Of a stretch of DNA of 64,000 bases, positions 59,848-63,709 are shown piece by piece. Within the stretch, counting starts at the first letter, position 1. Each line of letters opens with the position of its first letter. The notes under the pieces were generated by a model, which did not search any database, had not been told where the DNA came from, and worked only from the letters and a program-made list of their open reading frames with translations. Source of the DNA: Pseudonocardia sediminis (lineage in GTDB: Bacteria > Actinomycetota > Actinomycetes > Mycobacteriales > Pseudonocardiaceae); the NCBI RefSeq assembly GCF_004217185.1, contig NZ_SHKL01000001.1:5268001-5332000 (forward strand). Reading direction: 5' to 3'. Both the position numbers and the translations under genes were made by a program.

Positions 59848-59853
59848 TACGTT
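59848..59853 (+). promoter_or_regulatory. -10 box of the leaderless DUF6104 promoter
   Basis: TACGTT ends 7 nt before the GTG at 59861. The GGAGGG between them is too close to the GTG to act as a normal ribosome site. Confidence 0.5.
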
Positions 59854-59860
59854 GGAGGGC

Positions 59861-60043
59861 GTGTACTTCACCGACCGCGGTATCGAGGAGCTCGTCGACC
59901 GGCGTGGCGAGGAGCAGGTCAGCATCGAGTGGCTGGCGCTGCGCCTGCGCACGTTCGTCGACCTGAACCCGGAGTTCGAGACGGCGGTCGAGCGCCTGTC
60001 CAGCTTCCTGGCCCGCGACGACTCCGACGACCTCGAGGACTGA
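59861..60043 (+). CDS. DUF6104 small protein
   Basis: A 60-aa acidic protein, helical throughout, matching the actinobacterial DUF6104 pattern (YFTDRGIEELVDRRGEEQVSIEWLALRLRTFVDLNPEFE-type). Function is unknown. GTG at 59861 was chosen because homologues begin with MYFTDRG; a TTG three codons earlier is possible. It sits directly after the kgd terminator, with its own promoter. Confidence 0.8.
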   Translation: MYFTDRGIEELVDRRGEEQVSIEWLALRLRTFVDLNPEFETAVERLSSFLARDDSDDLED

Positions 60044-60064: not shown

Positions 60065-60427
60065 TCACCCGTCCTTGGGGCGGCGGCGGAACAGGCGGCG
60101 GTCCCCCGACGCGCGGAGCGTCTCGAGGGCCTCGTCGGCGTTGTTCTCCAGCTCGTGGTGAGCGGTCGGGTCGGCCCGGAGGTCCGGTCGTGGCCGCGGC
60201 TTGCCGGGTTCGCTCGTCGACCACATCAGCGCCAGCGCGTCCTCCCAGCGCAGCTCGAACATGCCCCGGGCGAGGACGAGCGCGTCACCGGCGGCGTGCA
60301 GCTCGCGCTCGGCCGACCGCAGCTCGCCGCGCAGCTCCTCGGCCCGTGCGGCGTCGACCTCGCGGAGCTCGACGACGGCTCCGGCCAGCCGGGCGACGAC
60401 GTCGCGGTACTGCTCGACGGCGCTCAT
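60065..60427 (-). CDS. Helical partner protein of the FtsK-like ATPase (C-terminal gene)
   Basis: A 120-aa protein, not recognised. The first 65 residues form a long coiled coil (YRDVVARLAGAVVELREVDAARAEELRGELRSAERELH-type heptads). A Pro-rich hinge with WSTSEPGKPRPRPD follows, then a basic end (RRLFRRRPKDG). ATG at 60427 overlaps the stop of the FtsK-like gene (ATGA), so the two are translated together and probably act together. Confidence 0.7.
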   Translation of the reverse strand: MSAVEQYRDVVARLAGAVVELREVDAARAEELRGELRSAERELHAAGDALVLARGMFELRWEDALALMWSTSEPGKPRPRPDLRADPTAHHELENNADEALETLRASGDRRLFRRRPKDG

Positions 60428-63204
60428 CGCTGCCCACCACCCCGATCGGTCAGGATCACCAGCTGGGGACGTCCGTGGCGGGCACGGTCGAGCAGCAGGC
60501 CCCGTCCCGGCGACGCCGGCCAGTCCACCGGCGCACCACCCAGCAGCGGCGTCAGGTCGGCCCCCTGCACGCCGGTCGCCACCCACGCCCCGAGGTCGTC
60601 GATCGCCGCACCGGGTGGCGCGAGGAGGCTCTTGAGCCGCTGGGCGCCCTGCCACCACCCCAGTACGTGCACCCCGACACCGGGGCCGTGCCGCAGCACC
60701 GAGCGCAGGTCCTCCATACCGGTCCGGTCGAGCATCGTCTCCGCGACGTCGGCCCCGAAGACCACGACCGCGAGCGTCGGGTGTGCGCCGCCGGTGCTGC
60801 CCGAGGCCGCCCGGTCCCGGACGACCCCGGCGAGCTCGCCCACGCGGGCGACGAACCCGTCGGCGAACACCTTGTCGACGTCGACGGGAAGACGGGCCGC
60901 GAGGTCCTCCGCCGCCGCGACCGCCTCCGCGGCCAGCGGCACCAGCACCATGCGGGTGCCCTCCTCGGGCAGGGTCGCGGCGTAGGACTCGGCGGCGGCG
61001 CACAGCAGGGGGACGGCGACGCGCGGATCCGGGCCGATCACGCCGAGGTTGCGGCCCGGTGAGTCGCCGAGCTCGGGCGCCGCCGGGCTGCCCGCCACGT
61101 CGACGAACTGGCCGATCAGGGCGCGTGGCACACCGTCGGACGGCAGGCGTGCGGCGAGAGCGTCGTGGCCCGGGGCGCGCGCCCCGTCGAACACGACCGG
61201 CTCGGGCGTGTCCGGGAACGCCGCGAACGCGTCCGGCTGCACCTTGCGGACCTGGGGCCCGCCGACCTCCGGCACCGTGACGACCTGGTTGCCGTGCTCG
61301 ACGCCGGAGTCGTGGTTGACGATCGCGTGCCAGCGCGGCAGCGTCAGCGCCGCCTCGTTCTCCTGGGCCAGGATCCGCCGCGCGCGGGGCAGGGCGACCC
61401 GCAGCACGAACTGCTCGAAGATCGCCGACCGGCCCCAGAGCGCGTCGATGCCGGAGATGTCCTGGCTGGCCAGCACGAGGTGGACGCCCTGGGAACGGCC
61501 GCGCCGGGCGACGTCCTCGAGCAGGGCGGTGGCCTCGGCGCTGACCGCGTCGCGGCCGGTGAACAGGAACTGGAACTCGTCGATGACGGCGACGATGCGC
61601 GGCAACCGGGCGCGCTCGTCGTCGATGTCGCGGTCGGCCAGCTCGGCGCGCAGCTCGGCGAGCTTGGTGGCGCCGAAGCGGCGCGCGGTCTCGGCCCGGG
61701 AGCGCATGACGGCGGCGAGGTGGCGCAGCAGCGCGAGCCCGAACTCCCGGTCGGTGTTGATGTTGACGCCGATCAGCCGGGCCTGCGGCAGCCGGTCCGT
61801 GCGGCGCCCGTCCGGATCGGGCGCGAACTGGGCGAACGAGACGCCCTCCTTGAAGTCGAGCAGGTACAGCTCGACCTCGTCCGGCCCGTAGCGCGCGGCG
61901 AGCCCGGTGATCCAGCCCAGCAGCAGGTTCGTCTTGCCCGAGCCGCTGGGCCCGCCGACGAGCGCGTGCGGCGAGTGGTCGTCGAGGCGCAGCTCGGCGT
62001 CGATGCCGTCCGCGACCCCGATCGGGGTCACCAGGCCGTCGTGCGAGCGCTCGGTCCACCGGTCGCCGTCGGCGGGCAGCAGGTCGCGGAACGCGCCGAG
62101 GCGGCCACGCCACTCCTCGTGCGCCGCGACGATCTGCTCGCAGATCCGCGTGACGGCGTCCGGGGACTGCGGGACGTCCGGCCCGACGAGCACGTGCGGC
62201 CCGGTCAGCGACGTCCGCACCGGCGCCGGGACGCCCTCGGGGTCGACTCCCGGGGGGTCGCCGAACGTCACCGTCTCGACCGGCCGGGGCAACGCCGCCG
62301 GGACGTCGAGCAGCACCAGCACGACGCCGGCCGCGATCCCGCCGCGTGCGACGCGCTGCAGCTGGCGCAGCTCCGCCTCCGGCAGCTCGCGGCCGCCGCC
62401 GACGAGCACGGCCACCATCCAGGACTCCGGACGCCGCCCGGTCCGCTGCGCCAGCTCCTTCAGCGACGAGCTGCCCTCGGCGAGCACGCGGGTCTGGACC
62501 CGGCGGATCCGGTCGGCGAGCTGGGAGAGCAGCGCCTCCAGGCGCGTCGGGTCGTGCACGGTCAGCAGGCCCGTCCGGGTCAGCGGGTAGAGCCCCGGCA
62601 GCGCGCCGGCCAGCTGCCCGACGTCCCACACGTGCACGTTCACCACGCCGGGCCGGAAGTGGCGCAGCATCCGCAACACCAGCGCCTCGACCATCGCCTC
62701 GGCCCGCTCACGCGTGGCCGGGGTCGAGACGACCTGCAGGTGCGCGCCGTCCAGCAGCGGGACGGCGACGCGGAACGGCGCGCCGCCCTCCACCGAGCCG
62801 GTGCCCAGGGCCCACATCTCGGGGACAGGCCCGACCGCCTCGACGACGCCGGCGTCCGGCGACCAGTCGCGGGGGTGGTCCCCGGCGGCACCCGGCGCGG
62901 CGGCGGAGACGATGTCGTTCAGCTCGGCCGGCGAGTCGCCCTGCCAGCGGTCGAACGCGTGCGCGCGGTCGTCGGCGACCCGGGCGAAGACGTCGGCGAA
63001 CCGGGGGTTGGCCAGCACCCGGGCGAGTCCCGGATCCTGCTGTGCCGCGTCGTGCCCGGTCTCGCGCAGCCACAGCTCGGCGAGCACCTCGGCGTGCCGC
63101 CGCGCGGCCGCGTCCCGGCGCGCCTCGGCGGACCCGAGCGCGGCGGAGGCGGCCGCGTGGAACGCCGCGAACGCGCTGCGGATCCGATCGCTGCGACGGC
63201 CCAT
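60424..63204 (-). CDS. Soluble FtsK/SpoIIIE-like ATPase with three tandem ATPase-type domains
   Basis: A 926-aa protein without membrane helices. The N-terminal 100 aa are helical. Residues about 145-312 look like a degenerate FtsK domain (HLQVVSTPATRERAE for the P-loop; SWMVAVLVGGGRELP for Walker B). Residues about 380-650 are a canonical one: Walker A GGPSGSGKT (417-425), LLDFKEGVSF, Walker B IVAVIDEFQF (537-546) and HLVLASQDISGIDALWG. Residues about 700-915 look like a third with the P-loop lost (NLGVIGPDPRVAVPLL). Tandem FtsK domains recall EccC of type VII secretion, but membrane anchors are missing. It lies between two small helical-protein genes. ATG at 63204; GTG at 63207 is possible. 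Confidence 0.82.
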   Translation of the reverse strand: MGRRSDRIRSAFAAFHAAASAALGSAEARRDAAARRHAEVLAELWLRETGHDAAQQDPGLARVLANPRFADVFARVADDRAHAFDRWQGDSPAELNDIVSAAAPGAAGDHPRDWSPDAGVVEAVGPVPEMWALGTGSVEGGAPFRVAVPLLDGAHLQVVSTPATRERAEAMVEALVLRMLRHFRPGVVNVHVWDVGQLAGALPGLYPLTRTGLLTVHDPTRLEALLSQLADRIRRVQTRVLAEGSSSLKELAQRTGRRPESWMVAVLVGGGRELPEAELRQLQRVARGGIAAGVVLVLLDVPAALPRPVETVTFGDPPGVDPEGVPAPVRTSLTGPHVLVGPDVPQSPDAVTRICEQIVAAHEEWRGRLGAFRDLLPADGDRWTERSHDGLVTPIGVADGIDAELRLDDHSPHALVGGPSGSGKTNLLLGWITGLAARYGPDEVELYLLDFKEGVSFAQFAPDPDGRRTDRLPQARLIGVNINTDREFGLALLRHLAAVMRSRAETARRFGATKLAELRAELADRDIDDERARLPRIVAVIDEFQFLFTGRDAVSAEATALLEDVARRGRSQGVHLVLASQDISGIDALWGRSAIFEQFVLRVALPRARRILAQENEAALTLPRWHAIVNHDSGVEHGNQVVTVPEVGGPQVRKVQPDAFAAFPDTPEPVVFDGARAPGHDALAARLPSDGVPRALIGQFVDVAGSPAAPELGDSPGRNLGVIGPDPRVAVPLLCAAAESYAATLPEEGTRMVLVPLAAEAVAAAEDLAARLPVDVDKVFADGFVARVGELAGVVRDRAASGSTGGAHPTLAVVVFGADVAETMLDRTGMEDLRSVLRHGPGVGVHVLGWWQGAQRLKSLLAPPGAAIDDLGAWVATGVQGADLTPLLGGAPVDWPASPGRGLLLDRARHGRPQLVILTDRGGGQR

Positions 63205-63226
63205 CACACGAGGTGGTCGACGGCTC

Positions 63227-63487
63227 TCACAGCCGGCCGGCGACGTCGTCGGCGGACTGCATCGCGATCTGGAGGGCCTGTTCGACCTCGTCGATCTTCT
63301 CCGACGCGGCGGCGAAACGGGCGCGGGCGTCGTCGGCGTCGTTCTGGGCCGTGCCGTAGATGTTCTGGGCGAAGGCGGCGCCGGCCTCCTGGATGGCCTG
63401 ACGGGCGTGCCGCAGCGCGCCGAGGCTCTCGGTGGCCTGCTGGTTGGCCCGTCCGATCCCTGCGCGGATCTCGTCGATGTTCGCCAT
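63227..63487 (-). CDS. Small helical-hairpin protein (WXG100-like size) leading the FtsK-like cluster
   Basis: An 86-aa protein predicted as two helices (about 3-37 and 48-85) with a turn around QNIYGTAQND. Its size and antiparallel hairpin resemble WXG100/ESAT-6 proteins, but the WXG is missing and there is no YxxxD/E tail (it ends DDVAGRL). ATG at 63487 follows GGAGGG. It is 22 nt upstream of the FtsK-like gene. A TAGGTT box at 63539-63544 (minus strand) is a candidate -10 for the three-gene cluster. Confidence 0.75.
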   Translation of the reverse strand: MANIDEIRAGIGRANQQATESLGALRHARQAIQEAGAAFAQNIYGTAQNDADDARARFAAASEKIDEVEQALQIAMQSADDVAGRL

Positions 63488-63709
63488 GAGGCCCTCCGTG
63501 CGAGTGCGTGCGACCTTCTCCGTCCGGCCGCCGTGTGCAACCTAGGGCGCAACCGCCGTCATCATGGTGAGCCGCGCCGTCACCGGGCGCAACGTAGCCG
63601 AGCGTGACGCGCGACGCCGTGAACGGGAGTCGTGACCGGTTCGTTCCCCGGCAGGGCCGTTCGGCCGCTTACCGTGAGGTTCCGACGACCCCGACCTGGG
63701 AGTGTGACG

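Follow-up and report, generated by a model that had tools for sequence, protein, structure and literature searches.

A conserved operon for a soluble, EccC-like triple ATPase and small helical proteins in Pseudonocardia, a probable core of a type VII-like export system

The DNA analyzed here, called the window below, is a stretch of 64,000 nucleotides (G000:C1:5268001-5332000) of the 6.6 Mb genome of Pseudonocardia sediminis. It carries three tightly packed minus-strand genes that a sequence-only reading had singled out as a candidate undescribed system, made up of a soluble triple FtsK-like ATPase and two small helical partners. The genes it described, coding for 86, 926, and 120 amino acids (aa), are all present, and the stop codon of the ATPase gene overlaps the start codon of the last gene in the sequence ATGA. 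The 86-aa product is designated A, the 926-aa product the ATPase, and the 120-aa product C; B stands for an extra hairpin gene of the relatives. The locus comprises the following features, each given with the evidence behind it.

60065-60427, minus strand: gene C, 120 aa, putative helical adaptor with the basic C-terminus LFRRRPKDG (open reading frame (ORF); neighbor of 75 of 79 ATPase genes)
60424-63204, minus strand: 926-aa EccC-like ATPase, ATG start (ORF, Pfam, NCBIfam, AlphaFold2 (AF2) model, Foldseek, VIA-align, hhalign)
63227-63487, minus strand: gene A, 86 aa, ending in GRL, putative WXG100-like cargo or adaptor (ORF, AF2 model, homology to toxin N-termini)
63492-63497, minus strand: Shine-Dalgarno-like GGAGGG, 4 nt upstream of gene A (direct reading of the sequence)

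The ATPase has close orthologues in nearly every genome of the genus Pseudonocardia and was found in 29 of the 29 Pseudonocardiaceae sampled, and the gene order is maintained in 79 named loci of this family. Hence, the three ORFs are not due to chance. The flanks of the 79 loci vary by genus, so that the linkage of the genes is more than chromosomal inertia. These loci have A, B, ATPase, and C in common, and no other gene. Besides the 75 ATPases accompanied by C, at least 61 have A and at least 41 have B as a neighbor; the counts for the small genes are minima, since short genes can escape the simple gene caller. A survey of gene neighborhoods had been proposed together with the sequence-only reading, and in it the small genes do normally accompany the homologues of the ATPase. 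B encodes an 83-aa hairpin protein and is placed between A and the ATPase gene in most relatives. It was not called in the window or its close sisters; just 22 bp separate A from the ATPase gene in the window, and the sisters are similarly tight. We conclude that the ancestral Pseudonocardiaceae operon had four genes, A-B-ATPase-C, and that the lineage of the window appears to have lost B. The trio proposed earlier is thus conserved as a unit, but the natural unit consists of four genes. The description of the system as soluble holds for the copy in the window, whose C, like that of other Pseudonocardiaceae, has a basic tail, but not for the more distant relatives, in which C bears C-terminal membrane helices.

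The AF2 model of the ATPase, based on 55 orthologues (predicted local distance difference test score, pLDDT, 86.6; predicted template modeling score, pTM, 0.73), consists of an N-terminal helical region followed by three RecA-like domains:

62899-63201, minus strand: N-terminal helical region, residues 2-102, with a long helix (2-49) and shorter helices, replacing the membrane helices of EccC (AF2 secondary structure)
62170-62815, minus strand: degenerate FtsK-like domain 1, residues ~130-345, Walker A lysine absent (AF2 model; hhalign to EccC D2)
61270-62067, minus strand: active FtsK/SpoIIIE domain 2, residues ~380-645, Walker A GGPSGSGKTN at 417-426, Walker B VAVIDEF (Pfam, hhalign)
60445-61137, minus strand: degenerate FtsK-like domain 3, residues ~690-920, fold equivalent of the substrate-binding ATPase 3 of EccC/EssC (VIA-align)

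Pfam recognized the middle domain only (FtsK_SpoIIIE at 408-584, E 1.7e-20) and gave nothing above the cut-off for A and C. The best NCBIfam model for the ATPase was that of EccCa of the type VII secretion system (T7SS), at 84 bits against a cut-off of 509 bits. When compared with profiles of the EccC domains, taken from related genomes, domain 2 was nearest to EccC D1 (hhalign 99.9%, E 2e-34), and domain 1 matched EccC D2 (88.7%, E 2.6e-6) as well as domain 2 of the same protein. Domain 3 was weak by sequence profile and clear by fold, and the N-terminal region gave no profile match to EccC. Walker A and Walker B are intact in the middle domain only and are retained in the Pseudonocardiaceae orthologues, with the catalytic residues of domain 2 invariant or nearly so across 55 relatives. 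One intact and two degenerate FtsK domains had previously been proposed from alignment by eye, and the Walker motifs, the AF2 fold, and the profiles bear this out.

The fold searches pointed to the same family. Foldseek placed the cytoplasmic EccC of Thermomonospora curvata (4nh0, E 1.4e-32) at the top, followed by EccC ATPases 2 and 3 with a signal peptide (4n1a) and EssC (4lya and 5fv0), and FtsK came later. In VIA-align, residues 109-922 superposed on 4nh0 over 745 residues (Z 25.3), residues 362-921 on EccC ATPases 2 and 3 over 498 residues (Z 25.5), and domain 3 on EssC D3 (6tv1) with Z 19.6 and on other EccC-type ATPase structures with Z ~20-21. The FtsK fold at both outer regions, named earlier as a point to check, is therefore present in the AF2 model and by VIA-align. 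Domain 1 was also compared with the "DUF" domain of EccC; the superposition on the EccC5 DUF reached Z 15.7, but the profile comparison with EccC DUF was not significant and this identity was rejected. No membrane N-terminus was found in the ATPase, the sole hydrophobic 19-mer (288-306) lying within domain 1, and the N-terminus is a soluble helical region in the model, in agreement with the earlier claim that membrane helices are lacking. A separate paralogue of the ATPase occurs at the hpt-ftsH-folE loci of family f15 (L032, L122, L130, and L133). Its middle Walker A is lost (GRSDADRSAF and similar), all three domains look catalytically dead, and its neighbors are transmembrane (TM), lytic-enzyme-like, and C-like proteins.

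The AF2 model of A is a two-helix hairpin (helices 4-41 and 48-85, pLDDT 92.5), as the sequence-only reading had anticipated. A and B share homology (hhalign 96%, E ~1e-9), and neither is related to C. The C-terminal RL is found in 27 of 28 A orthologues and in 19 of 27 B proteins. Neither Pfam nor NCBIfam has a model for the A/B hairpin domain. Sequence comparison did not support membership of A in the WXG100 proteins, as there was no Pfam match to PF06013 up to E 10 and the hhalign comparison was not significant. The fold did not establish it either: WXG100 entries head the Foldseek list for A with non-significant E values above 0.4, and VIA-align gave generic hairpins at Z ~10, usual for helical pairs. 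For L119, an f15 relative of A, WXG100 is the top Pfam match at E 0.012, which is below the cut-off. A free-standing A-like protein ending in AGRL (L332:1250-1513, genome G532) lies upstream of membrane proteins in an apparent actinomycete integrative element.

When genomes were searched with the profile of A, the N-termini of larger proteins in one Pseudonocardiaceae genome were also found. The C-termini of these proteins are DddA-like deaminases (E 4e-29 and 8e-22) and a CdiA_C-like nuclease, with Imm1 immunity genes (E 1.5e-24 and 7e-14) after the DddA-like toxin genes. Circularity was avoided by collecting toxins via PF14428 (DddA-like) alone, without the A profile. Of the 121 genomes searched in the order, 11 were positive, and all 11 belong to the two main families with the ATPase. 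In 13 such toxins, a set that omits two toxins found through A, the first 90 residues matched A with 98.0% (hhalign, E 1.8e-13, 86 columns) and B with 96.9%, as against 3% for WXG100 and 2.7% for C; across the comparisons of toxin N-termini, WXG100 gave 3-8%. With the 15-member set, in which the two toxins are included, column permutation gave scores of at most 14 versus 71 observed, and reversal gave 0.9%. The toxin search ran the profile against all reading frames. Hydropathy revealed neither a signal peptide nor a TM helix in any of 34 A-domain toxins, and a small A/B-like gene lies immediately upstream in 10 of the 34; in genome G139, one such toxin and its small partner are encoded ~3.5 kb away from the operon. 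Among 26 full toxins, there were 17 DddA-like, three CdiA_C, and one EndoU. Judged by profile comparison, the A/B hairpin is a domain family common to the operon proteins and the N-termini of small polymorphic toxins. This putative new trafficking-domain family is the most novel part of the system. Two further proteins were noted. In L183:1009-1710, an A-like N-terminal domain is fused to Imm1 (1.4e-17) in place of a toxin. Immediately downstream of a paralogue of the ATPase, L129:10868-11131 encodes a member of the DUF6244 family (Pfam 2e-27) that matches the A-domain profile at E 2e-5. DUF6244 may on this similarity belong to the A/B family.

The distribution of the two components was compared with an ATPase profile of 19 sequences (E < 1e-60 for the cross-table) and a combined A-domain profile. 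Besides all sampled Pseudonocardiaceae, the ATPase was detected in 28 genomes of one high-GC family, presumably Micromonosporaceae, and in few others; a phylum-wide survey found it in four of 296 genomes. The A-domain profile was positive in 58 of 200 genomes of the order. Both components were present in 57 of the 200 and both absent in 133, with the ATPase alone in nine and A alone in one (Fisher 4e-39, phylogeny not corrected for). The A match in the single ATPase-negative genome (G229) is a coiled-coil repeat and a false positive. The nine genomes with the ATPase alone include G098, whose sole ATPase copy has lost Walker A, and Hsp70-type families in which A is too divergent for the profile. 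Among 292 genomes across the phylum, convincing A matches were obtained in two, both ATPase-bearing; two weak matches in long frames (538 and 1120 aa) were taken as false positives. The association is due in part to shared ancestry within families.

We propose, with a probability of about 0.68, that the trio forms the central part of a T7SS-like machinery for protein export, driven by the EccC-like ATPase and operating without EccB/D/E or mycosin. The domain architecture, the conservation of the operon, the homology of A, B, and the toxin N-termini, and their co-occurrence with the ATPase are observed; from these we infer the docking of A/B on the ATPase, their export, and the coupling to the membrane by C. 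In the work behind PDB 4n1a, the C-terminal signal of EsxB reportedly binds ATPase 3 of EccC and promotes EccC multimerization. By analogy, A (with B where present) would form a small four-helix hetero- or homodimer, and its conserved carboxy end RL would dock in the peptide pocket of the dead domain 3. Docking would trigger the formation of a hexamer, in which the lone active middle domain would hydrolyze ATP and move A/B-domain proteins over the membrane. C may couple the motor to the membrane through the C-terminal membrane helices seen in many distant relatives; in Pseudonocardiaceae, the coupling would probably occur via the basic tail or another protein. As the hairpin is the N-terminal targeting domain of toxins in other genera, the system would export antibacterial effectors there, and Pseudonocardia would have retained the core with almost no recognized effectors. 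The system is probably T7SS-like in its working. By its defining parts it is not a member of the T7SS, because it lacks a WXG100 protein recognizable by sequence, EccB/D/E, mycosin, and a membrane anchor in the ATPase. That it represents an undescribed T7-like secretion class of Pseudonocardiaceae and Micromonosporaceae-like bacteria, with a soluble middle-active motor, an A/B targeting domain, membrane coupling by C, and delivery of DddA-like toxins independent of canonical ESX, has in our opinion an even chance of being correct.

Several results weigh against export by the trio. In hhalign comparisons with 49 WXG100 proteins, A gave no significant match (1-10%). The locus does not encode a partner that could form a channel, and the Pseudonocardiaceae C has no TM helix. 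No A domain was detected by profile in the ATPase-bearing genome G069 and families f11 and f13. The correlation runs mostly by family (Pseudonocardiaceae and Micromonosporaceae-like), so that it reflects few independent events. Finally, no A-domain toxin was recognized in the genome of the window or in almost all of 60 Pseudonocardia genomes, in which nearly every A-profile match is the single operon A; the own cargo of the trio may thus be A alone.

The solubility of the Pseudonocardiaceae copy and the lack of a channel partner would also suit a cytoplasmic remodeling machine, in which the ATPase loads, disassembles, or stores A/B-domain proteins such as toxin-partner complexes. In such a machine, C would be an adaptor in the cytoplasm, and Hsp70, J-TPR, and GrpE would be co-chaperones. 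The Hsp70, J-domain/TPR, and GrpE genes that flank the ATPase in L033, L034, L035, L124, and L203 fit this explanation. The TM helices of the distant C proteins and of the J-TPR proteins nevertheless place the machine at the membrane, and the A-domain toxins, with immunity genes and without any other export signal, look as exported effectors would, so we regard such a role as unlikely. Slightly less likely still is that the trio serves as an accessory to canonical ESX, with A/B leaving via the host EccB/D/E channel and the ATPase acting as an alternative or specificity motor. The genome of the window does have a canonical ESX locus (L185, G000:C1:5565000-5575000), with two WXG100 proteins, an EccC of 1299 aa, an EccD-like protein of 450 aa, and a mycosin-like protein of 403 aa, and 29 of the 31 relatives examined have WXG100 loci. 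However, the ESX locus is separate and ~240 kb away, the trio is conserved as an operon of its own, and its ATPase is devoid of the N-terminal membrane region of EccC. ESX-type WXG100 loci are moreover present in most ATPase-negative families of the order, so ESX alone is no predictor of the ATPase.

The least likely rival, which we consider very improbable, is a DNA translocase with helical adaptors, acting for example in segregation or defense. The FtsK motor can be superposed on the middle domain with Z 29, and there are weak matches to the defense ATPases SspH, mad8, and HerA. The defense matches are limited to the generic ATPase core, and a DNA-binding domain, FtsK gamma or other, was not found in Pfam. 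In PADLOC, an anti-phage defense system was rejected, as nothing matched beyond the ATPase core and nothing at all for the small proteins, and the PHROGs matches of the ATPase were limited to FtsK-like and terminase entries. The closest full-length relatives are protein-secretion motors and the small partner falls in a toxin-targeting domain family. The sequence-only reading had allowed for a motor working on a small helical substrate or on DNA with helical adaptors; because the small proteins have relatives that form the N-terminal domains of toxins, which points to protein cargo, the former is favored and the latter disfavored.

If the export proposal is correct, the operon provides the motor and the targeting signal for many small actinobacterial polymorphic toxins that have no known export signal. 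Most of these are DddA-like deaminases, which belong to a family employed for base editing. It would also mean that EccB/D/E and mycosin are dispensable for a motor of the EccC type, and the function of EccC itself could be addressed in a minimal context. The prediction would be directly testable in cultivable, non-pathogenic actinomycetes.

Relatives of the ATPase were found in other surroundings. In L033, L034, L035, L124, L131, and L203, the ATPase adjoins Hsp70 and a J-domain/TPR protein with TM helices, with GrpE on a Rhodococcus plasmid; these Hsp70-linked loci are a chaperone-coupled version of the system. Caballeronia and Helicobacter plasmids encode a middle-active triple ATPase with WXG100-like and helical-nuclease proteins. 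On the plasmid of Caballeronia sp. SBC2 (L204:3835-16660), a triple FtsK ATPase, WXG100, a helical-nuclease-like protein, CARF (DUF1887), two VWA proteins, PP2C, and a Ser/Thr kinase form one run. The plasmid of Helicobacter sp. NHP19-012 (L205:5218-9620) has the ATPase, an 89-aa WXG-like protein, and a 340-aa protein with a helical part and a WHH nuclease (1.1e-11), adjoining an SMI1/KNR4 protein. Helical proteins of 308-338 aa stand beside WXG100-type relatives of the ATPase in L126:5883-6899, L128:9451-10377, and L206:9667-10611; they end in an NG[YF]HR motif resembling the ParB/sulfiredoxin fold, with no Pfam match there. In the window itself, a 61-63-aa ORF at 59852-60043 on the plus strand (YFTDRGIEELVDRRGEEQVSIEWLA...) is convergent to the trio, adjoins a 2-oxoglutarate dehydrogenase gene, and is conserved across the genus.

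With the FtsK/SpoIIIE translocases the ATPase shares the motor domain; FtsK_gamma (Pfam to E 10) and the membrane N-terminus were not found. The likeness to EccC/EssC (4nh0, 4n1a) is much wider, comprising three tandem FtsK-like domains, a similar fold over nearly the whole soluble part, and small paired helical proteins encoded alongside. The differences from EccC are the missing transmembrane N-terminus, the position of the intact domain, which is the middle one here and the first in EccC, and the NCBIfam score that falls far short of the EccC cut-off. In contrast to T7SSa, the genes common to the 79 loci do not include EccB, EccD, EccE, or mycosin. The layout had been likened earlier to EccC plus a WXG100-like protein without these components, and both the fold of the ATPase and the gene content agree. 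A and B resemble EsxA/EsxB and the LXG/WXG toxins as helical hairpins of ~86-90 aa encoded as a tandem paralogous pair, and the LXG/WXG polymorphic toxins in the use of the hairpin as a toxin N-terminal domain, next to which immunity genes and small partners are encoded. Instead of the WXG motif, however, they have the conserved RL end and a loop containing G[ST]. DUF6244 (PF19757), an 87-aa hairpin that matches the A profile and stands beside a paralogous ATPase in L129, is a Pfam family of its own, of unknown function. A literature search covering few subscription journals returned nothing on DUF6244, on soluble or orphan EccC, or on Hsp70-FtsK-WXG clusters. The closest published description found is footnote 6 to Table 1 of Zhang et al. 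2012 (PMC3482391), one sentence on a middle-active triple FtsK ATPase with a solo WXG in proteobacteria, planctomycetes, cyanobacteria, and others, described as mobile. Our system differs in that the A/B hairpins are not recognizable WXG100 proteins and in that it is chromosomal and family-wide in the Pseudonocardiaceae (29 of 29), not mobile, though distant plasmid relatives exist. The catalytic layout of three FtsK domains with the middle one active is identical, and the Caballeronia and Helicobacter plasmid relatives fit the published description.

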